Below are positions 1 to 30,285 of a stretch of DNA of 50,579 nucleotides, piece by piece. Both the position numbers and the translations under genes were made by a program. The stretch is from positions 1-50,579 of IMG/VR virus record IMGVR_UViG_3300035698_010217; one strand, 5' to 3'. Position 1 is the first letter of the stretch; the number at the start of each line of letters is the position of its first letter. Under the pieces are notes generated by a model. The model saw nothing but the letters and a program-made list of their open reading frames with translations. It made no database searches and was not told the origin of the DNA. The DNA comes from a virus.

Positions 1-178
1 CAGATAGGAGGATTTCCACTATTCCTTTGTGGCCAAACCGAGCTGCATAGTGCAGAGGCGTCCAACCATCCATACCAGTTGTATTGATATTCGCCCCTTT
101 GGATATAAGAAGTTCGACTGTTTTTGTACAGCCATTCGAAACTGCTTTGTGCAATAGTGGTGTTTTACCTTTACTCAT
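1..178 (-). CDS. Ankyrin-repeat protein, partial (runs off left edge)
   Basis: The first 59 codons of a second ankyrin gene, read leftward from ATG at 178. It begins MSKGKTPLLHKA, the same 12 residues as the complete ankyrin protein immediately upstream, followed by ankyrin signatures (ELLISKGANIN, DGWTPLHYAA). Its ATG overlaps the TGA of the upstream gene (ATGA), so the two are translationally coupled and clearly arose by tandem duplication. Ankyrin repeats bind proteins; the target is unknown. The C-terminus lies outside the window, so total length and any extra domain cannot be judged. Confidence 0.85.
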   Translation of the reverse strand, partial: MSKGKTPLLHKAVSNGCTKTVELLISKGANINTTGMDGWTPLHYAARFGHKGIVEILLS

Positions 179-765
179 TGTTTACCTCCATGTTTTTCAA
201 GAAGTTTAACTGTTTTTGTGTGGCCATTCGAAGCTGCATAGTGTAAAGGTGTTTCACTATACTCATTCTTTGCATTAACATTCGCACCTTTGGATATAAG
301 CAGTTCTGCTATTTTTATATAGCCATTCGAGGCTGCAATGTGCAGAGGTGTCCAGCCATCATCGTCCTTTGCATTGACGTCTGCATCCTTGGATATGAAA
401 AGTTCTGCTGTTTTTGTGCGGCCATCCCAAACTGCATAGTGCAGAGGAGTCCAACCAGACATATTCTTTGCGTTAACATTCGCACCTTTGGATATAAGCA
501 GTTCTGCTATTTTTATATAGCCATTCGAGGCTGCGTTGTGCAAAGGTGTCCAACCATACTTATCTGTTGCATTGACATCTGCACCCATGGATACAAGAAG
601 TTCTGCTGTTTCTTTGTGACCATTCGAAGCTGCAATGTGCAGAGGTGTCCAGCCGTCATCGTCCTTTGCCTTGACATCTGCACCTTTGGATATGAGCAGT
701 TCTGCTGTTTCTGTGCGGCCATCCCAAATTGCCTTGTGCAATAGTGGTGTTTTGCCTTTACTCAT
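175..765 (-). CDS. Ankyrin-repeat protein (about six repeats)
   Basis: A 196-aa protein made almost entirely of 33-residue ankyrin repeats. WTPLH/ETPLH motifs recur every 33 residues, each followed by AASNG or similar, AELLISKGA and DVNAK/NVNAK. I count six repeats, the first a capping variant (TPLLHKAIWDG), with no signal peptide or added domain. The ATG at 765 is preceded by AGAGGAGA. Ankyrin proteins are protein-binding scaffolds. In phages they are sometimes proposed to act on host or eukaryotic partners (the 'ankyphages' of sponge symbionts), but no target can be read from this sequence. Its stop overlaps the start of a downstream paralogue. Repeat-to-repeat DNA identity is high (see the 62-bp repeat), suggesting recent internal duplication or gene conversion. 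Confidence 0.92.
   Translation of the reverse strand: MSKGKTPLLHKAIWDGRTETAELLISKGADVKAKDDDGWTPLHIAASNGHKETAELLVSMGADVNATDKYGWTPLHNAASNGYIKIAELLISKGANVNAKNMSGWTPLHYAVWDGRTKTAELFISKDADVNAKDDDGWTPLHIAASNGYIKIAELLISKGANVNAKNEYSETPLHYAASNGHTKTVKLLEKHGGKQ
275..534 (-). repeat. 62-bp exact internal duplication in ankyrin gene
   Basis: Bases 275-336 and 473-534 are identical over 62 bp. The offset of 198 bp is exactly two 33-residue ankyrin repeats. Identity includes synonymous positions, so it reflects recent duplication or gene conversion rather than protein-level selection. A weaker pair near 340 and 637 has an offset of three repeats. Confidence 0.85.
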
Positions 766-901
766 TGTTCTCCTCTTTCTGGTTTCCCTCTTTTGAACTA
801 TACCCGACTACCCAGCCGAGGTAATAGTTTGTGAGTAGGATTGTTGCAATACACAAGCCCGACTTATCAGCAAGTACCAAATCTACTATGAAATCTAGCA
901 T
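758..901 (-). CDS. Small putative membrane protein (47 aa)
   Basis: Start ATG at 901 is chosen because AAGGAGG sits 5 bases upstream. A longer reading from 1012 would overlap the NADAR gene by 100 bases and lacks such a site. The protein (MLDFIVDLVLADKSG...) has one hydrophobic stretch, roughly residues 15-34 (GLCIATILLTNYYLGWVVGY), followed by a charged tail KEGNQKEENNE. It looks like a single-pass membrane peptide. The stop lies a few bases before the ankyrin start, so it belongs to the same leftward operon. No family recognised. Confidence 0.65.
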   Translation of the reverse strand: MLDFIVDLVLADKSGLCIATILLTNYYLGWVVGYSSKEGNQKEENNE

Positions 902-911
902 ATTGTCCTCC

Positions 912-1469
912 TTATAAAGGCTTAGTGTTCTTGCACTCAGGATAGTTTGAACATCCCAAGAATGGACCAAACTTGCCTTCTCGTCTGACCATGTGGAAAC
1001 CACACCTACCACAAATTACATCTTCTACGTCCTGTAGCTCTATATTATGAAGTTTAGCCAGGTCATGTCGTACTTTCATGAGAATTTTACCTAGGTGGTT
1101 TTGGCCGGTGCCTTTGCATGCTCCCCAGAAGGTATCACCCCAGTGATTACCTTCTATCAGCTCATGTTTATTTGTAGAGAGTAGCAGTTCCTTATATGTA
1201 TCACGATTAAACTTCTGGGTAACAAGACCTTTCATAATGTCTAATTTGACATCATTCCAGTCTGGTCGTAATACGACATTGCCACCCATAGCCTTAGCAC
1301 TAGCTGCTGTAGGTGCTGATGCAATAAGTTTTCTAGTATCAACATCAGTTGTTTTGGCAGCTTGGTATGCATGCTCTACCGAAAAGTAGGACACGCCATC
1401 ATATTCCACTTCCACAGGTGCAAAGTTGCTAAGCCACGAATTGTCTCCCCTGAACGATGATATCGTCAT
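912..1469 (-). CDS. NADAR-domain protein with C-terminal topoisomerase-type zinc ribbon
   Basis: 185 aa. Residues 1 to about 145 match the NADAR/YbiA fold: an N-terminal F-x-G-D-x-S-W-L-S-N-F segment, VSYFSVEHAYQAAKT, and a late block with NHWGDTFWG and GQNHLGKILMKVR. NADAR enzymes cleave N-glycosidic bonds of ADP-ribose-type compounds; some reverse guanosine ADP-ribosylation of DNA, and YbiA-like members act on riboflavin intermediates. Residues about 152-185 form a zinc ribbon of the topoisomerase I C-terminal type (C-x2-C, then GKFGPFLGCSNYPEC). The ribbon probably recruits the enzyme to nucleic acid. Start ATG at 1469 follows AAGGAGGTAAT. In a phage, a counter-defence or NAD-metabolism role is plausible; that is inference. 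Confidence 0.87.
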   Translation of the reverse strand: MTISSFRGDNSWLSNFAPVEVEYDGVSYFSVEHAYQAAKTTDVDTRKLIASAPTAASAKAMGGNVVLRPDWNDVKLDIMKGLVTQKFNRDTYKELLLSTNKHELIEGNHWGDTFWGACKGTGQNHLGKILMKVRHDLAKLHNIELQDVEDVICGRCGFHMVRREGKFGPFLGCSNYPECKNTKPL

Positions 1470-1492
1470 ATTACCTCCTTGGTATTTTCCTC

Positions 1493-1777
1493 TTATACAA
1501 GATTCTCAATAACATTTAAGGTTTTACCGGATTGTATATCCCTCCAGAAATCTCCGGAGGACTTAGCCAACTCTTTAGCAGAGAACTGCATCCCTTTGAG
1601 ACACCCTTCTCTTAGGCCACGGAGTACCTCAGGGTTATCTACATTAATACCTGCTTCCTTTAGCATATGAGCAGCTTGCATTGCTTGTAGTATCATACTA
1701 CGCCCAATAGCTCTGAGAGTAGTATTTTCAAGCGCTGAGATAGCCTCTCGCATTTCCTTGCTTCTTTTTGTTTCCAT
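1493..1777 (-). CDS. Hypothetical protein (94 aa), helical
   Basis: Start ATG at 1777 with AAGGAA nine bases upstream. The protein (METKRSKEMREAISALENTT...) is predicted helical by composition, with no Cys cluster, signal or membrane segment. It ends 23 bases before the NADAR start and is in the same leftward operon. No family recognised. Confidence 0.7.
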   Translation of the reverse strand: METKRSKEMREAISALENTTLRAIGRSMILQAMQAAHMLKEAGINVDNPEVLRGLREGCLKGMQFSAKELAKSSGDFWRDIQSGKTLNVIENLV

Positions 1778-1836
1778 GTAATAGTTCCTTTCTAGTGTAA
1801 GTGGGAGTGGGGTAGTTTATTTTACAGTGATTGAAA

Positions 1837-2022
1837 TTAACTATTCATATGGTTCAACTTCAAGTAGGTCGCCAATAGTGGCACCTGCCCCAGCAGATGA
1901 GTCAGAAGGCTCATAGCCATCTCATGATGGCCATCTAGGTACAATCTAACCGCAGCTTCACACTGCGGTATGTTTGCACTCATAGAATAGCCGAGAACTT
2001 CGAGAACTTGTTGATCCGTCAT
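1837..2022 (-). CDS. Hypothetical protein (61 aa)
   Basis: ATG at 2022 is preferred over the upstream ATG at 2046 because GGAAAGGGG lies just ahead of it and it forms an ATGA overlap with the stop of the gene at 2019-2327. The sequence MTDQQVLEVLGYSM...QCEAAVRLYLDGHHEMAMSLLTHLLGQ looks like a small all-helical protein with a tetratricopeptide-like feel. No confident assignment. Confidence 0.65.
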   Translation of the reverse strand: MTDQQVLEVLGYSMSANIPQCEAAVRLYLDGHHEMAMSLLTHLLGQVPLLATYLKLNHMNS

Positions 2023-2327
2023 CGTATTAACCCCTTTCCAGGACATTGGTAAGGGTTTGGGTTTGGCTTAAACTTCGATATGGCCCCATCGTCGGCGACC
2101 ACTACCGCATTAAAACCAAGGTCGTGGTACACAACTGGGTAGAGATTTATCTCCACCATGAAGATATAAGGGATACCCTTCAACATTTGGATATCCTGAA
2201 TTTGGAAGTCACTTGTGTGCTCCACAGTGATACAATCCCCTTTCTTTGGTAGTTTATCAAGCTCTACCGACTTGATATAATCGGGATCCCCAACGGAATC
2301 CCCTAACACTACATACAGTGCTTTCAT
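2019..2327 (-). CDS. Hypothetical protein (102 aa)
   Basis: Start at ATG 2327, preceded by AAAGGAGG at good spacing. The longer open frame back to 2426 would overlap the zinc-ribbon gene and is rejected. The N-terminus MKALYVVLGDSVGD is followed by a beta-rich, SH3-like pattern: a KLPKKGDCITVEH block, then a hydrophobic strand (IPYIFMVEINLYPVV) and a K/P/N-rich tail. Its stop overlaps the start of the 61-aa gene. Function unknown. Confidence 0.72.
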   Translation of the reverse strand: MKALYVVLGDSVGDPDYIKSVELDKLPKKGDCITVEHTSDFQIQDIQMLKGIPYIFMVEINLYPVVYHDLGFNAVVVADDGAISKFKPNPNPYQCPGKGLIR

Positions 2328-2344
2328 ACTATACCTCCTTTCGA

Positions 2345-2418
2345 CTAAGGGCAGCCTAAGCTGCCCTTCCTCTTTATCGGATACCAATTGGGCCCTACGA
2401 TGAACCCGAAGGTTGACG
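2345..2418. repeat. Diverged repeat copy A with hairpin, in leader of 102-aa gene
   Basis: Contains a perfect 7-bp hairpin, GGGCAGC-CTAA-GCTGCCC (2349-2366). About 40 bases further right lie ATTGGGCC-TACGA and CCGAAGG blocks. The same order of blocks occurs again at 4351-4424. Copy A lies between the zinc-ribbon stop and the RBS of the 102-aa gene, where it would form part of an mRNA leader on the - strand. No T-tract follows the hairpin, so it is a poor terminator. Confidence 0.5.
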
Positions 2419-2419
2419 T

Positions 2420-2563
2420 TTAGCACTCATCCAACTCAGTGCCACAATATGAGCAGTAATACTGCTCTTTGGGCACTGAGTAGTGAGTACCACAATTAGG
2501 ACACCATATACGTGGCTCTTCTTCATGAAGAACCTCTCCATCATAGATTATAATCATCTTCAT
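2420..2563 (-). CDS. Mini zinc-ribbon protein (47 aa)
   Basis: A short gene with a clear Shine-Dalgarno (AAAGGAGATAGAA) ahead of ATG 2563. The protein begins MKMIIIYDGEVLHEEEPRIW and ends with a two-knuckle zinc ribbon, CPNCGTHYSV...YYCSYCGTELDEC (Cys 21, 24, 37, 40). It is almost nothing but a zinc ribbon. Such phage proteins often bind nucleic acid or a host protein; the role here is unknown. Confidence 0.75.
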   Translation of the reverse strand: MKMIIIYDGEVLHEEEPRIWCPNCGTHYSVPKEQYYCSYCGTELDEC

Positions 2564-2600
2564 TTCTATCTCCTTTACATTATGTGAATACACAACTTCT

Positions 2601-3029
2601 CTATGGTGATGGGGTGAATGTTCTTCTCATGACAGCAGTTCCCACCTTTGATTTAACAAATCCGTATGCCTGAATGAACGGCATCGGAATTGCCTGCTCT
2701 TCTTCCAAAGCCCGGAGTTTTTGTACAACCGCAGCCCTTGAGGATACCCTATACTCATAGAAAGAGAACTTCTCTGGATGCCCTTTCGGGAAGGAGAATA
2801 TTATCTGCTTCCAGGCATTTCCATTCTCGACAGTAAGGAGAGCATTAACATAACCTCTCCTCTTACTTTCAATGAGCTCCCACGTTTGAGACTCATCAGT
2901 CAAGGATTCAGTATGTAGAGCCTTGACCTTGTCAAGTTCGGCCTGAATGCGTGCAGTTTCTTCCAGAACTGCTGCGAGCTTCATTTGTTGCGTCTTAACG
3001 GTAACCATTAATTGTGCTTTAGTAGCCAT
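2601..3029 (-). CDS. Hypothetical protein with N-terminal coiled coil (142 aa)
   Basis: Start ATG at 3029 with AGAAGGA upstream. Residues about 15-45 have a heptad-like pattern (KLAAVLEETARIQAELDKVKAL), indicating a coiled coil. This is followed by a mixed, more polar globular part (KQIIFSFPKGHPEKFSFYEY) and a basic tail. A perfect 7-bp hairpin (CTGCCCT-ATA-AGGGCAG, 3041-3057) lies in its leader just upstream of the RBS. No family recognised. Confidence 0.72.
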   Translation of the reverse strand: MATKAQLMVTVKTQQMKLAAVLEETARIQAELDKVKALHTESLTDESQTWELIESKRRGYVNALLTVENGNAWKQIIFSFPKGHPEKFSFYEYRVSSRAAVVQKLRALEEEQAIPMPFIQAYGFVKSKVGTAVMRRTFTPSP

Positions 3030-3070
3030 ATTAAATCCTTCTGCCCTATAAGGGCAGCTAAAGTAAAGGA

Positions 3071-3095
3071 GGGCGTTAGCACAATACTAACGCCC
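3071..3095 (-). terminator. 9-bp perfect hairpin between two - strand genes
   Basis: GGGCGTTAG / CTAACGCCC arms (3071-3079 and 3087-3095) with a 7-base loop, directly after the stop of the 61-aa gene at 3108. On the - strand it is followed by TCCTTTACTTTA, only moderately T-rich. It is therefore a probable weak terminator or RNA-stability element. Confidence 0.5.
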
Positions 3096-3107
3096 TTTGT
3101 TGACCAA

Positions 3108-3293
3108 CTATCCTATACGAGAGGCAAGCTCCTCTCGTAAGTCCCGATACTTGACCATAAGAGTCCGTCGATCGGACTCTCTCAGCCTGGGGTCTCTGTT
3201 AATAATAGCAGAGACTCCAACTCTGATCTCATCACTTGTAAGCTTCTTTACAGCTTGTATTGCAAGCACTTTACGTACTGGTCTATTTCTCAT
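3108..3293 (-). CDS. Hypothetical basic protein (61 aa)
   Basis: ATG 3293 is chosen (GAGGAG nine bases upstream); a TTG fifteen bases further out is less likely. The protein MRNRPVRKVLAIQAVKKL... is strongly basic, with many Arg/Lys and a RESDRRTLMVKYRDLREEL helix, compatible with nucleic-acid binding. The start overlaps the end of the upstream 54-aa gene. Function unknown. Confidence 0.65.
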   Translation of the reverse strand: MRNRPVRKVLAIQAVKKLTSDEIRVGVSAIINRDPRLRESDRRTLMVKYRDLREELASRIG

Positions 3294-3447
3294 GGTTCTT
3301 CTCCTCAATCTTGAGTTCCTGAATACGATCTCTCAGCTTCGCTGAGGACCCGAAATATTCACTCCCACTAACCATATGAAGGGAGCAGCTGGTCCAGTTC
3401 ACATACACTGGACCAGGATTTTTGCATCCTATAAAGAGTAATACCAT
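3283..3447 (-). CDS. Hypothetical protein (54 aa)
   Basis: A short gene supported by GAAGGAGATGTA directly before ATG 3447. It shares TAATG with the stop of the upstream membrane gene and overlaps the next start by eleven bases, which is tight operon packing. It reads MVLLFIGCKNPGPVYVNW..., then a charged helical end KLRDRIQELKIEEKNHEK. The two cysteines (8, 21) are not in a recognised motif. Confidence 0.62.
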   Translation of the reverse strand: MVLLFIGCKNPGPVYVNWTSCSLHMVSGSEYFGSSAKLRDRIQELKIEEKNHEK

Positions 3448-3719
3448 TACATCTCCTTCGTTCTGTTAACAATTGTCTTGCGGGCCGCTTTGACAGTCCT
3501 TCTCCACGTGTGCATGATCATTGGAATCACTACAACAGGCACCACCACTACAATTATAATGGGGGCGATGATACACAGTGGGATAAGTATGGTACCAATG
3601 AGAATGGTACTCACATCCATGACATGCCCCAATACAGAATTGGGGAAGACTCTCTTGGTGAGTCTTCCAACGGTGAAGGTGGTGATACACAGGACGCTAA
3701 TAATAATAACTACAGCCAT
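3447..3719 (-). CDS. Small two-segment membrane protein (90 aa)
   Basis: ATG 3719 with AGAAGGG upstream; the alternative in-frame GTG at 3764 is weaker. Two hydrophobic segments are visible: residues 2-17 (AVVIIISVLCITTFTV) and about 37-69, which includes ILIGTILIPLCIIAPIIIVV and VVPVVVIPMIM. A basic cytoplasmic-type tail follows (HTWRRTVKAARKTIVNRTK). It looks like an inner-membrane protein. Another of the same style is at 4918-5184. Function unknown. Confidence 0.68.
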   Translation of the reverse strand: MAVVIIISVLCITTFTVGRLTKRVFPNSVLGHVMDVSTILIGTILIPLCIIAPIIIVVVVPVVVIPMIMHTWRRTVKAARKTIVNRTKEM

Positions 3720-3828
3720 AATATGGCCCTTCTGCTCCCTAAGGAGCCTTAACAGTATGCACACTCTTAGTTACATATCCAACTCTAACCACGTGGAGGT
3801 GGTGTGCTCTAGAGTCTAAGCAGTTTAA

Positions 3829-3844
3829 AGACCTGCTCAGGTCT
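3829..3844 (-). terminator. Short hairpin after the 72-aa gene
   Basis: AGACCT-GCTC-AGGTCT, a 6-bp perfect stem just past the stop at 3851. On the - strand it is followed by TTTAAACTGC. It is a short candidate terminator, with low certainty because the stem is short. Confidence 0.35.
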
Positions 3845-3850
3845 ATAACA

Positions 3851-4069
3851 TTACTCAGACAGCTTATGGCGCTTGTTAAGAATGTCTGATGCTGAGATAG
3901 CACCCGACATCAAAGCATCCAAAATTGGATACTCTTTGTTGCCTCCCAGGTTACTAACATCGGAACAGAGTACGATCTCTATTCCTGGGAGTAGAGACTC
4001 TTCGTGAAGGAGCACTACTTCTTGGCAGAGCTTCCTCTGTTCTTCGTTTCCGTTAATGAAGTATAACAT
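3851..4069 (-). CDS. Hypothetical protein (72 aa)
   Basis: ATG 4069 is chosen because of AAAGGAGATTGCC directly upstream; the open frame to 4129 has no RBS. The sequence is MLYFINGNEEQRKLCQEVVL...LLPGIEIVLCSDVSNLGG..., ending SASDILNKRHKLSE. It is the first gene of this - strand block after the long control region, so it probably starts a transcript. Two leader hairpins precede it: one at 4090-4115 with 8-bp arms GGGTAAGT/ACTTACCC, and an imperfect one around 4116-4142. Function unknown. Confidence 0.7.
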   Translation of the reverse strand: MLYFINGNEEQRKLCQEVVLLHEESLLPGIEIVLCSDVSNLGGNKEYPILDALMSGAISASDILNKRHKLSE

Positions 4070-4235
4070 GGCAATCTCCTTTAAGTATAGGGTAAGTGGG
4101 TAACACGACTTACCCTGGGCATAGACCATCTATACCCTGGGGTAGGTCATCATGGGTGCTGTGATTGTATTGTATTGTAGTACTCACTACCTATAGTATA
4201 TACTAAAGCTCTATATACATATAGGAAGTCTGGTT
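4070..4235. other. Gene-free stretch, leader hairpins
   Basis: No credible gene. On the - strand this is the leader of the 72-aa gene, with a perfect 8-bp hairpin (4090-4097/4108-4115, 10-base loop) followed by an imperfect one made from CTGGGCATAGA and its near-complement. The part around 4180-4225 is TA-rich. I could not find a convincing promoter in it. Confidence 0.5.
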
Positions 4236-4332
4236 CCATTGAGTGGATATACTCAATCCATTCAATGGGTACACTCAATCCATTGAGTGAACTGTACAAG
4301 CTGATACAATGAACTGGACTCAGCTACTCAAT
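4236..4332. promoter_or_regulatory. Operator-like cluster of ACTCAAT/ATTGAGT half-sites
   Basis: Five exact 7-bp half-sites in both orientations lie at 4238-4244, 4251-4257, 4273-4279, 4282-4288 and 4326-4332. Two pairs form palindromes. One is ATTGAGT-N6-ACTCAAT (4238-4257). The other is the perfect CACTCAATCCATTGAGTG (4272-4289). The direct repeat ACTCAATCCATT occurs at 4251 and 4273, 22 bp apart (about two helical turns). This is typical of a dimeric regulator or replication-initiator site; the protein is not identified. Confidence 0.55.
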
Positions 4333-4350
4333 GGATGGACGTACTCTAAC

Positions 4351-4424
4351 AGACTGGCAGCCTCAGCTGCCTCACTTCTCGCCAGACACCTATTGGGCCG
4401 TACGAACACTCCGAAGGCTGGCTC
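4351..4424. repeat. Diverged repeat copy B with hairpin
   Basis: Same block order as copy A at 2345-2418: hairpin GGCAGC-CTCA-GCTGCC (4356-4371), then ACACC-ATTGGGCCGTACGA and CCGAAGG. Similarity by eye is about 70%, with the stem compensated. No gene occupies it. It may be a relic or a second copy of a structured RNA leader. Confidence 0.5.
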
Positions 4425-4576
4425 CTGCCCACAGAGGTGTGGACATGTGCCTACCGGCCCCTGTGCAGGGGCCTATACGGATATGTGTGCGTGCCCACCC
4501 CCATGCCCTAGCCTACGGCCATGTGCATACAGGGTGTGCCCACAGAGGGGGTGTGCGTACAGGGGTGCATATACGA

Positions 4577-4668
4577 GTGCCTATACAGGTGCATACAGGT
4601 GCCTATACAGATGCCTATACAGGTGCATACAGGTGCCTATACAGGTGCCTATACAGGTGCATATACAT
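4577..4668. repeat. Iteron-like tandem array, 12/10-bp units
   Basis: Eight contiguous units of GTGCCTATACAG or its 10-bp form GTGCATACAG, in the length order 12-10-12-12-10-12-12-12, giving a higher-order 34-bp period. Degenerate units (GTGCATACAGG, GTGCGTACAGG and similar) extend left to about 4440. No spacers exist, so this is not CRISPR. Next to a TA-rich tract, it resembles initiator-binding iterons. Confidence 0.75.
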
Positions 4669-4718
4669 AGTCCCTACTATGCACATACAGGTATATGGCT
4701 ATACACATACCCATATAC

Positions 4719-4805
4719 CTAGATATATACACATGTATATCCTAGATATATACTTATATATATATATATACTTATATATATATATATATTATAGTCTCTA
4801 TACAT
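4719..4805 (-). CDS. Repeat-encoded micro-ORF (28 aa), doubtful
   Basis: ATG 4805 has an excellent Shine-Dalgarno (GAGGAGGTGACT) that overlaps the end of the upstream 35-aa gene. The product is MYRDYN followed by alternating Ile/Tyr (IYIYISIYIYISIY) encoded by the TA microsatellite, then LGYTCVYI. It could be a real short beta-prone or membrane peptide, a leader whose translation matters, or a chance frame created by repeat expansion behind a decaying gene. Confidence 0.35.
   Translation of the reverse strand: MYRDYNIYIYISIYIYISIYLGYTCVYI
4746..4792. repeat. TA-rich low-complexity tract
   Basis: Nearly pure alternating TA with two CTTATATA interruptions, about 80 bp right of the iteron-like array. 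Such a tract melts easily and would serve as a DNA-unwinding element if the array is an origin. Confidence 0.7.
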
Positions 4806-4807
4806 AG

Positions 4808-4915
4808 TCACCTCCTCACTAGACCTACTACGGCAGCTATTGCCGTAGTTGTGACTACCACCATAATAGTCACACCAATTGATAACAGATATGAAATTAT
4901 GTTGATTATGTCCAT
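4808..4915 (-). CDS. Single-pass membrane peptide (35 aa)
   Basis: ATG 4915 with AAAGGAG seven bases upstream, two bases after the stop of the preceding gene. The product is almost entirely one transmembrane helix (MDIINIISYLLSIGVT, then IMVVVTTTAIAAVVG) ending LVRR, the positive-inside end. It belongs to a run of tiny membrane proteins in this operon. Function unknown. Confidence 0.6.
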   Translation of the reverse strand: MDIINIISYLLSIGVTIMVVVTTTAIAAVVGLVRR

Positions 4916-4917
4916 GT

Positions 4918-5184
4918 TTAACTCCTTTCATTGTGGGTGATTTGTTTTACTATTTGTTTTACTTTTGTTGTTTGTAGTACTTTCTGTACTACGACCTTAT
5001 GTAACTTCTGTATTACTATACACATAGTAATACAGAGGATAGTAATACAGAGCATTGTTATAGGGAATTGATAGATCCCTATAACAGTCATAATAGTATT
5101 AATTGCTTTTGTTCTACCTATAAGTATATAGGTAAGAGTAACAGCAACAAGCCAAACAACGATGAATAGAATGAATGAAAACAT
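4918..5184 (-). CDS. Small membrane protein (88 aa)
   Basis: ATG 5184 with AAAGGAGA upstream; the open frame to 5238 has no RBS. Two hydrophobic segments are visible: residues 2-22 (FSFILFIVVWLVAVTLTYIL) and about 30-56 (TIMTVIGIYQFPITMLCITI). A Lys-rich tail follows (KLHKVVVQKVLQTTKVKQIVKQ). It is the first - strand gene left of the divergent region. It may act on the host envelope or in superinfection exclusion, but nothing specific is visible. Confidence 0.65.
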   Translation of the reverse strand: MFSFILFIVVWLVAVTLTYILIGRTKAINTIMTVIGIYQFPITMLCITILCITMCIVIQKLHKVVVQKVLQTTKVKQIVKQITHNERS

Positions 5185-5428
5185 AGTGATTCTCCTTTCA
5201 AGAGAATGGTGATGGGGGTACCGTAAATGGATAAACATATATCCTATAGGTACCTTAACTTAACATCATCACTCACTTACCCTACCAAACCATACCGTAT
5301 ACTAACCATGTACCCCTCATGGGCAGGGGGATGAGGTCGATGTCAAACCAGGATCAAGGGGGTACCGTACTAAGCATGGGGTGGTTATGGGGGAGGGGAT
5401 GGGGTAGGTGTGAAACTTTATAATGGTC
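5185..5428. promoter_or_regulatory. Divergent intergenic region: direct repeat and G-run cluster
   Basis: No gene. It holds an exact 12-bp direct repeat GGGGGTACCGTA (5214-5225 and 5358-5369). It also holds four G-runs on the + strand (5378-5381, 5389-5393, 5395-5398, 5401-5404) with loops of 7, 1 and 2 bases, which fits the G-quadruplex consensus. The cluster ends 24 bases before the -35 of the rightward promoter. A leftward promoter must lie here too, but I could not define one. Confidence 0.6.
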
Positions 5429-5457
5429 TTGACATAAGGTTATATAAGTGGTATACT
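5429..5457 (+). promoter_or_regulatory. Consensus sigma-70-type promoter for the rightward late block
   Basis: TTGACA (5429-5434), exactly 17 bp, TATACT (5452-5457). Predicted start is about 5464, giving a ~50-base leader before ATG 5514. A second promoter with identical hexamers and spacing occurs at 18851-18879, and both have an AGGTT-like spacer start. Confidence 0.85.
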
Positions 5458-5513
5458 TGGTATGGTCTTAGTGATTATTTGAATTCAGTGTATAGTATGA
5501 ATAGGAGTAGGGT

Positions 5514-6344
5514 ATGACATGGCCGAATGATCATAGAGTATGGTTGGATGACTACAGAATAAATGCGTCCCATGCAAATGGAGCGTTTAAAGGAGTTAGG
5601 GATTGTATTGTAGAGATAGATGGTGTTGCTAATAACAATACTACTACGACTAAGACCAAGCCTTACTCTGTTAATACAGTACCTATTGAGCCTATACTTA
5701 GTATATTACCTACAAAAGGTTTCTGTGATGGGCTTTATTATAGTGTTGCTACTACACACACAAGAGCATCTTCTATAGGGGATATCAATGTAACCTATGA
5801 GTTCTGGCTTGTATATGATGGGGTAACTGATACTAGAGTTGGAGCTCCTGCAGCTTCTTTTCAGAGCTTTACCTTCTCAGTTATAAGTGCTGCCGCTGCT
5901 AACATAGCTGCTTTGGTTGCTACTCATGACGGTGGGATGAAGATCTGCCAGGCTAAATCTAACGGAGCAGTATGGAGTACCTATGTATATGAAGATACTC
6001 TTACCCCGGGTTTGTACACTGATGTTCTTACAGACGGTGCTGTATGGTCTGATCATCTGTTCGAACGTACATCAGGATCTGGTATAGATGCCGATGGAGT
6101 CCCACTCAAGGACGGTACTGTAGATGGTCTGGACGCTTCAATGGTGCGCTCTGCCTTCAGAGAGAACAGTTCTAATACATACGACTTTGATGTTAGTAAT
6201 GATTGGGTATCTGTTAATAAGACAGAAAATGCAGGTAATGCAGGGTTTTCTCTGCATGCTAATATAGAGACTGGTGCTTATGTTAGTGTTGCAGCCACAG
6301 CATCTGTGAACATGGGAGCTCCGGATACAATGGGTACTGGCTGA
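5514..6344 (+). CDS. Putative virion-associated protein (276 aa)
   Basis: First gene of the rightward block; ATG 5514 is preceded by AGGAGTAGGG. It is Ser/Thr/Ala/Asn-rich and beta-rich, with no membrane segment. The C-terminus (residues about 195-276) includes DADGVPLKDGTVDGLDASMVRSAFR and Gly/Ala/Val-rich strands, in the style of a decoration or fibre-like virion protein. It ends in TGA followed directly and in the same frame by a GTG-initiated 82-codon frame. Its first-in-operon position, ahead of a giant virion protein, supports a structural role; I recognise no family. Confidence 0.72.
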   Translation: MTWPNDHRVWLDDYRINASHANGAFKGVRDCIVEIDGVANNNTTTTKTKPYSVNTVPIEPILSILPTKGFCDGLYYSVATTHTRASSIGDINVTYEFWLVYDGVTDTRVGAPAASFQSFTFSVISAAAANIAALVATHDGGMKICQAKSNGAVWSTYVYEDTLTPGLYTDVLTDGAVWSDHLFERTSGSGIDADGVPLKDGTVDGLDASMVRSAFRENSSNTYDFDVSNDWVSVNKTENAGNAGFSLHANIETGAYVSVAATASVNMGAPDTMGTG

Positions 6345-28898: not shown

Positions 28899-29510
28899 AT
28901 GACTCAGCAATCTCAAATGACCATGTCCTACCACACCGTTAGTGGTGTTGATATCCAGGCTACTTTTGGAGGCTATGAAATAGGAGCTCTGCAGGGTGTT
29001 TCGTACACCATTACCAGAGAGAAGGCCCCTGTGTATACCATGGGAAGTGCCAATCCTAGATCATTCTCTAGAGGTAAAAGAGGTATAGCCGGTTCTCTGA
29101 TCTTTGTTGTATTCAATCAATCTAACCTGATAGAGGCCATGAAAACTAAGGCTCTCTTCTGGGCTAAGAAGGGTGACTACATTAACAAAGAGATGTCTGT
29201 CGGCGCCAACCTGGACGTAATACCAAGAAGCGAAAGCGAGTATGGCAATGCCACGCTAAGCTACGCTTGGTACCACGACCAAATCCCACCATTCAACATT
29301 GTGCTCACTGCTTTAACTGAGTACGGTGCTGCTGCGCAGATGGAAGTACGTGGTGTCGAAATTCTGAATGCAGGTTCTGGTATTAGTGTCGACGACATTA
29401 CTACCGATGAGAACATGACATTCATTTGCAGGGAGATTAAACCGTGGGTTTATAAGAACGCCACGCCTCCTTCAGAGGCTAATCTTGGCCAGAATATCGG
29501 CTTTGCCTAA
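28899..29510 (+). CDS. Tail tube protein
   Basis: 203 aa; AAGGAGGTAGGAA precedes ATG 28899, 12 bases after the sheath stop. Sheath followed by tube is the invariant contractile-tail order. The fold has a TYxI-like N-terminus (GYEIGALQGVSYTITREKAPVY), then SFSRGKRGIAGSLIFVVF, and a C-terminal block (IPPFNIVLTALTEYGAAAQMEVRGVEILNAGSG, then SVDDITTDE). Two diverged paralogues follow. An intrinsic terminator lies right after it. Confidence 0.88.
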   Translation: MTQQSQMTMSYHTVSGVDIQATFGGYEIGALQGVSYTITREKAPVYTMGSANPRSFSRGKRGIAGSLIFVVFNQSNLIEAMKTKALFWAKKGDYINKEMSVGANLDVIPRSESEYGNATLSYAWYHDQIPPFNIVLTALTEYGAAAQMEVRGVEILNAGSGISVDDITTDENMTFICREIKPWVYKNATPPSEANLGQNIGFA

Positions 29511-29571: not shown

Positions 29572-30285
29572 ATGGATAATAGACAAATACCACACTCAGA
29601 AGACTTTGATAAACTAAGGGATTTACATCATGGTATATCCCCTGAAGAGTATACTACATACTCTGGCTCTGACGTACAACCAGCTATACATGTACCGGGT
29701 TACGCCCCTATAGGTAGACCTAGTAGATTTGTCCCTATGAGGGACTTACAAACTATATCTGTATCCTCTGCCAGGTCTGTTTCTGCAGTTAGATCTCTTG
29801 GAGAGAGTAACGCAGATGAATATACAAGAGGGGCCAGAACCTATGCAGGTTCCATGATTCTTACTGATGGAAGCCAAAGCTCCTTCTCACAAGTACTCAC
29901 TATGGACGCAAATGAATCTGGGTACCCTCAAAGATTCTTTATCGATCAAATGCCTGAGTTCAATATAACACTTACCGCTATCAATGAATACGGCAACTCC
30001 GTAACAAGAACCGTACTAGGTATAACTCTAGTAAACTACGGGACTACCGTATCTGTTGATAATATGTTTACAGAGTCTCAATACACCTATGTAGCAAAGC
30101 ATGTAACTCCATTCCTACCTGGAGACCTATGGAGAAAACTCACACTTGTAGAGTATAAAGGCCAGAAACTAAACTTAGATACCTATCTAGATGGGCTATT
30201 TGATAGAGGGGTAGAAGATCTCCACTTCCCAGAGGGTGCCACTAAAGCTTCTGATCTACTTGATAGTGGGAGTGTGCCTCTATGA
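29572..30285 (+). CDS. Tail tube-like paralogue 2 (237 aa)
   Basis: Shares with the tube gene the GAxYxGSMIL block, the QMPEFNITLTAINEYGNSVTRTVLGITLVNYG strand block, and SVDNMFTESQYTYVAKHVTPF at the same distance from the end. The N-terminal 40 residues and C-terminal ~40 differ. ATG 29572 has no Shine-Dalgarno and follows directly on a terminator hairpin, so initiation is probably weak. It may cap the tube or join it to the baseplate. It ends in ATGA overlap with paralogue 3. Confidence 0.78.
   Translation: MDNRQIPHSEDFDKLRDLHHGISPEEYTTYSGSDVQPAIHVPGYAPIGRPSRFVPMRDLQTISVSSARSVSAVRSLGESNADEYTRGARTYAGSMILTDGSQSSFSQVLTMDANESGYPQRFFIDQMPEFNITLTAINEYGNSVTRTVLGITLVNYGTTVSVDNMFTESQYTYVAKHVTPFLPGDLWRKLTLVEYKGQKLNLDTYLDGLFDRGVEDLHFPEGATKASDLLDSGSVPL

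Follow-up and report, generated by a model that had tools for sequence, protein, structure and literature searches.

A repeat-bearing divergence locus with a G-rich box as a candidate replication-initiation region in a distant relative of large myoviruses

The stretch analysed here, referred to as the window, is an IMG/VR record taken whole (IMGVR_UViG_3300035698_010217; 50,579 bases), and it is probably a genome fragment rather than a full genome since the record is classed as linear. It carries genes for a terminase, a portal and a major head protein, and among named phages its closest relatives, with proteins 27-32% identical, are MTATph1 of Moorella, KLEB27-3 of Bacillus and ME3 of Acinetobacter. 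The phage is a myovirus distantly related to these large phages, and the annotation of ME3 suggests a link to the lineage of Bacillus phage 0305phi8-36, which was itself absent from the collections searched. Leftward genes (small genes, a NADAR gene and ankyrin genes) run from about 5184, the rightward structural arm starts at 5514, and the repeat-rich DNA that was initially annotated as a candidate replication origin lies at this divergence. Judged by sequence comparison, the locus is the best candidate for the start of phage DNA copying, because relatives share the point at which gene direction and base composition flip and mark it with a G-rich box.

Repeats and skew at the divergence locus

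Five ACTCAAT/ATTGAGT sites are present as initially annotated, at 4238-4244 (-), 4251-4257 (+), 4273-4279 (+), 4282-4288 (-) and 4326-4332 (+), that is, five of the 12 copies in the window packed into 95 bp (4238-4332). The palindromic arrangement ascribed to them applies to four sites, which form two palindromes (4238-4257 with 7-bp arms and 4272-4289 with 8-bp arms), and not to the fifth, which stands alone; a 22-bp repeat (4235-4284) also lies within the cluster. To the right, a GC-rich (about 60%) stretch (4340-4563), in which the array motif recurs in decayed form and GGCCCCTGTGCAGGGGCC makes a palindrome at 4456-4473, leads into a tandem array on the plus strand (4564-4667; consensus GGTGCCTATACA / GGTGCATACA), to which Tandem Repeats Finder (TRF) assigns a period of 12 or 34. 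The 12/10-bp pattern and its 34-bp higher period are thus as described, whereas the unit starts (GTGC/ATGC at 4565, 4577, 4589, 4599, 4611, 4623, 4633, 4645 and 4657) and their spacings (12, 12, 10, 12, 12, 10, 12 and 12) give nine units, not eight. A search for the array word elsewhere, proposed with the initial annotation, found GTGCCTATACAGGTGC six times in the array at up to three mismatches and nowhere else in the window, and across IMG/VR as single copies only, in about the number expected by chance. The TA tract, a possible unwinding element, was estimated at about 47 bp and measures 48 bp (4746-4793, by TRF). Array and TA tract are both held in a tract of alternating purines and pyrimidines (about 4430-4793) that is the maximum of the window, the alternation peaking at 0.79 (over 150 bp, at about 4640) against a window mean of 0.48.

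These repeat features are far above chance expectation. The array contains 59 repeated 8-mers versus 4.2 in shuffles, and within the whole window a 7-mer recurs at least five times per 100 bp only in the ACTCAAT cluster, the array and the TA tract; in 15 locally shuffled windows, such recurrence never rose above 4. A coding origin of the array was rejected, its 34-bp period not being a multiple of three and its frames being of low complexity, and Rfam returned just weak matches, under family thresholds, at the repeat region. The claim that no protein gene explains the stretch is correct for 4070-4718; the TA tract, however, falls inside an uncertain, putative 28-amino-acid (aa) open reading frame (ORF) on the minus strand (4719-4805), preceded by a good ribosome-binding site (AGGAGG, 5-nt spacer). 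This ORF is Ile-Tyr-rich through the TA tract, and the 35-aa ORF ahead of it supplies the ribosome-binding site with its final codons.

No direct DNA relative of the window was found in the phage collection, peptide scans with p5514, the terminase and the capsid did not find close relatives, and a scan of bacterial genomes by portal gave no match. Distant relatives were collected through an alignment of the MTATph1, KLEB27-3 and ME3 terminases, which led to 140 IMG/VR relatives, of which 80 loci were kept; ORFs were called mechanically and several of the relatives are fragments. Across the near-complete ones (177-244 kb), the equivalent point separates a leftward small-gene operon from the rightward structural arm. 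Cumulative GC skew also reaches its genome-wide minimum there in most of these genomes, so that the locus in this family is one of transcription divergence and, in most relatives, of genome-wide strand-composition reversal. Divergence and skew minimum coincide in G001, G002, G009 and W03, and approximately in W01, W02 and G008; in the window, the minimum for the 50.6-kb fragment is at 5318. The distance from the minimum to the skew maximum, the point of gene convergence, is 123 kb in the 244-kb G001 and 84 kb in the 178-kb G002, a placement as for two replichores, with the other genomes less even.

The strongest alternating tracts and hairpins were also sought in relatives without using the window sequence, and whole records were then taken for the two longest. 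In L060, L062, L053/L054 and L066, the strongest alternating tracts precede the rightward structural arm and adjoin the leftward small-gene operon; alternating tracts occupy the matching place in G001, G002, G009, L053/L054 and L066. The strongest tract in the entire G001 genome (244,052 bases) is at 216,409 and the skew minimum at 215,686, the corresponding positions being 50,745 and 50,694 in G002 (177,611 bases) and 64,657 and 65,349 in G009. An alternating tract as a universal feature was rejected, about two thirds of the relatives having none at the divergence. The start of the structural arm in L050 adjoins a large region (887-3346) that is for the most part noncoding and includes a 73-bp tandem repeat.

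A G-rich box at the skew minimum

At the skew minimum, the recurrent element is a G-rich box (G-box) of the general form GGGGGTGGG-C-NN-YGAAM, which in the window lies some 0.75 kb rightward of the array. It was first spotted by eye in divergence regions and tested afterwards. Form 1, GGGGGTGGGG-C-NN-CGAACG, is carried by G007, G009 and MTATph1, and form 2, GGGGGTGGG followed by a GAAA-containing word, by G001 and G002. The window box, GGGGTGGTTATGGGGGAGGGGATGGGGTAGGTGTGAAAC (5378-5416, +), has its core, GGGGTAGGTGTGAAAC, at 5401-5416 with three more G-runs ahead of it; it lies within a canonical G-quadruplex motif, the only one in the window against 0.34 expected, and is also the most G-biased 30-mer there.

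Located by DNA pattern alone, the G-box falls at the divergence of phages bearing the family terminase. Scanning IMG/VR with form 1 gave 11 matches, five of them at or near the divergence in family records (G007, G009 and three new records, in which the terminase was confirmed) and six in records showing no such terminase. Form 2 gave three matches, two in terminase-bearing records, namely L222, cleanly between divergent genes, and L223, whose contig is also that of L037, near one end of it; the remaining match falls in coding sequence of a record that lacks the terminase. Additional copies of the box occur at L031 and L072.

The skew minimum is within 2.2 kb of the G-box in all ten sequences and within 250 bp in eight, as measured to single-base minima of noisy curves: 102 bp in G007, -167 in G009, 239 in W03, 129 in G001, -214 in G002, -83 in the window, 53 in G020, 250 in G015, -991 in G021 and -2205 in G018. 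For G020, G021 and G018 the skew constitutes an independent prediction, because these records were fetched for their box; the box of G015 was seen before its skew was computed, and that of the window was recognised later. The alternating tract lies to the left of the box by 763 bp in the window, 738 bp in G001, 859 bp in G009 and 164 bp in G002.

A second motif, ACCCC-NN-GCAAATTTTTT, is found 30 bp past the G-box in four relatives (weaker in one) and 32 bp past it in G007. Among individual loci, L195, L197, L198, L199 and L200 carry this partner at 30 bp (32 in L200), and in the same five the first box and the bases next to it can pair, by eye, as a hairpin whose loop contains or adjoins CGAAC.

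Replication, transcription or packaging

We tentatively read the repeat stretch, at somewhat less than an even chance, as the left half of a replication-initiation region of about 1.4 kb (about 4070-5513) between the leftward operon and the rightward arm. The array and TA tract would most likely be its lineage-specific left half, and the G-box the conserved part of what would be the primary initiation region. The gene strand switches at the locus, as at T4 oriE, and composition switches 83 bp from the box in the fragment and at the locus in most near-complete relatives, though not cleanly in G006; the G-rich tract sits at the divergence, as in an origin primed by an R-loop or G-quadruplex. Forks would leave in both directions from the neighbourhood of the box. 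Rightward transcription could yield a G-rich RNA that forms an R-loop or hybrid quadruplex and from it a primer, by analogy with T4 oriF/G and mitochondrial CSB2 (PMC3016281, PMC5027508). The alternating or TA tract may provide easily unwound DNA for helicase loading or, alternatively, relieve supercoils between two divergent transcription units, and the 12/10-bp array together with the ACTCAAT palindromes may offer lineage-specific sites for a phage protein regulating initiation or the adjoining operon.

Several observations weigh against a replication-initiation region, and some of them bear on the form in which an origin was initially annotated, as iterons with an initiator and an unwinding element. 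A direct-repeat array does lie beside A/T-rich DNA in the window, and repeated 8-mers are well past chance only there (121 versus 30 expected). No comparable array was found in the tracts of L053, L060, L062, L066, L067 and L072, all distant relatives, repeated 8-mers being within about two standard deviations of chance in L060, L062, L053, L067 and L072 and slightly above it in L066. As repeats well beyond chance occur in the window only, the array is, as far as distant relatives tell, a private part of a shared locus. A DnaA-type box with up to one mismatch was not found in 4000-5600, and no Pfam or PHROG initiator was recognised among the genes scanned around the locus in this fragment, which is part of a genome. 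With the array missing from these relatives, neither DnaA box nor initiator found and the G-box as the recurrent element, comparison does not support the proposed anatomy; the location is supported by the genome-wide skew minimum at the matching divergence in most near-complete relatives. Also unfavourable are G006, in which the raw and the detrended skew minima are both off the divergence, W01, which has no clear G-box, and G006, G007 and W01-W03, which have no alternating tract. The arms of ME3 (W02) are strongly unequal (64 and 170 kb), and a symmetric half-genome layout was rejected as proof because of this asymmetry.

A further difficulty is that skew alone is undecisive, because gene direction flips at the same point; in almost all genomes the skew and the orientation of genes reverse together, G007 being the one genome in which they come well apart. 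Counter-oriented genes are most numerous in G007, and in nine of nine of those with at least 200 aa the third-position skew follows the arm, with an arm effect of t=4.1. Pooling nine genomes, 18 of 22 counter-oriented genes are below the co-oriented median (p=0.004), most of them from G007. The arm coefficient is positive in all eight genomes fitted (ORFs of at least 120 aa) and significant in G007 only, and that of G002 turns slightly negative on refitting with ORFs of at least 150 aa; outside G007, counter-oriented genes that could separate the composition switch from gene strand are few. The skew of counter-oriented genes favours a replication effect without proving it.

The strongest rival explanation is that the region controls the leftward, probably early, small-gene operon, with promoters, ACTCAAT operators and a long structured leader, the skew being a mark of divergent transcription and the G-box regulating one operon. 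It gains this rank because the tract directly precedes the leftward genes and hairpins are dense in the operon, although we consider it unlikely on balance. Between 2401 and 5500 there are 24 perfect hairpins (arms of at least 7 bp, loops of 2-12) versus 2.6 expected, an excess of about nine-fold that spans 2255-5134, within and between the small leftward genes, the structural arm being at about chance; the stems are unlike in sequence, and hairpin density is also raised beside the corresponding locus in L062, L060 and L066. A hairpin-forming leader (4089-4140, with a 9-bp-arm inverted repeat at 4089-4116) immediately precedes a 72-aa gene (4069-3851, -) whose start at 4069 has a ribosome-binding site. 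On the other side of the box, a sigma-70-type promoter with an extended -10 (TTGACA-17-TATACT; 5429-5457, +) begins 12 bp past it and opens the structural arm, and the skew is collinear with gene strand in most genomes. An operon-control region does not account for G007, where skew tracks the arm and not gene strand, nor for a box that stays at the skew minimum while its distance to the first rightward gene ranges from about 110 to 470 bp, unlike a promoter element.

Second in rank is a packaging site or genome end, in which the box would be a site of terminase recognition or cutting and the small-gene operon would lie in a terminal repeat, an explanation that we regard as improbable. The genome of 0305phi8-36 has a terminal repeat, transcription that converges on its centre and small genes of host-takeover type toward its right end (PMC2147016), and its ends therefore fall at the equivalent divergence, which is what places this explanation second. 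The box precedes the arm that holds the structural and terminase genes, and the partner at a fixed spacing of 30 bp in four relatives would also suit a packaging signal. Against this, contigs cross the box in almost all relatives, only L037 starting close to it, which excludes a plain cos end there, and a cutting site alone leaves a strand-independent skew reversal unexplained.

The least probable explanation takes the array and TA tract as neutral simple-sequence DNA that slippage has enlarged between genes, and it is a possibility for the array only. The array is private to this phage, has units that lose 2 bp as expected of slippage and is purest centrally with decay on either side, a pattern that fits slippage whether or not a protein uses the repeats. 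Against this explanation, alternating tracts recur at the matching locus in several relatives, and phages seldom have noncoding gaps this long.

Two further minus-strand ORFs lie between the TA tract and the box. The first is the hydrophobic 35-aa ORF (4808-4915), with an AAAGGA ribosome-binding site, and the second an 88-aa membrane-type ORF (4918-5184) with long hairpins at 5007-5036, 5056-5086 and 5115-5134. Four perfect hairpins stand in series in the latter (4973-5134; folding z-scores to -7.7), and a 15-bp direct repeat in its region encodes CITILCITM. Further left, 912-1469 (-) encodes a protein in which a topoisomerase-type zinc ribbon comes after a NADAR domain, and the adjacent ankyrin-repeat ORFs at 175-765 (-) and 1-178 (-) share an identical opening, MSKGKTPLLHKA, and 99-bp DNA repeats. 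In the structural arm, the neighbouring genes at 28899-29510 and 29572-30285 both match the head-protein family phrog_9206 and are probably a duplication.

Relation to known origins and significance

The closest known arrangement is that of T4 oriE, which has evenly spaced 12-nt repeats whose role is still undefined in T4 (PMC3016281); the T4 origins oriE, oriF and oriG sit at transcription and composition switches, and oriF and oriG have an A+T-rich unwinding element beside a promoter (PMC3016281). As in oriE, the window has short repeats where transcription strand and base composition switch, whereas its repeats are spaced by 12, 12 and 10 bp. The iteron origins of plasmids and satellites, such as the PLE ori with RepA_N (PMC7145576), similarly have noncoding direct repeats next to A/T-rich DNA; in the window, by contrast, no initiator gene was recognised nearby, the array is not kept in relatives and its units are short (10-12 bp). 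Mitochondrial CSB2 and R-loop-primed origins (PMC5027508) share with the window a one-strand G-tract beside a promoter, the window box being a quadruplex motif, an analogy in sequence character only. The plan of 0305phi8-36, to which ME3, KLEB27-3 and MTATph1 are related, resembles that of the window in its two oppositely transcribed arms and related structural genes, and the comparative study of that phage maps no origin (PMC2147016).

The locus may represent an undescribed type of origin in large phages, a possibility we hold to be rather doubtful. Such an origin would consist of an R-loop- or quadruplex-prone GGGGGTGGG-C-NN-YGAAM box at the divergence of the arms, with a partner box 30 bp off in one subgroup, aided on its left by fast-turnover alternating DNA and private arrays. 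To our knowledge, few replication origins of large phages other than T4 have been identified, as skew and genes by themselves yield no short element to test. The G-box is a defined element of about 20 bp common to distantly related phages, with terminases about 30% identical, and since box-bearing MTATph1 infects a named host, the origin claim is directly testable. If it is true, repeats of the T4 oriE kind would be a replaceable part of the locus rather than its core.
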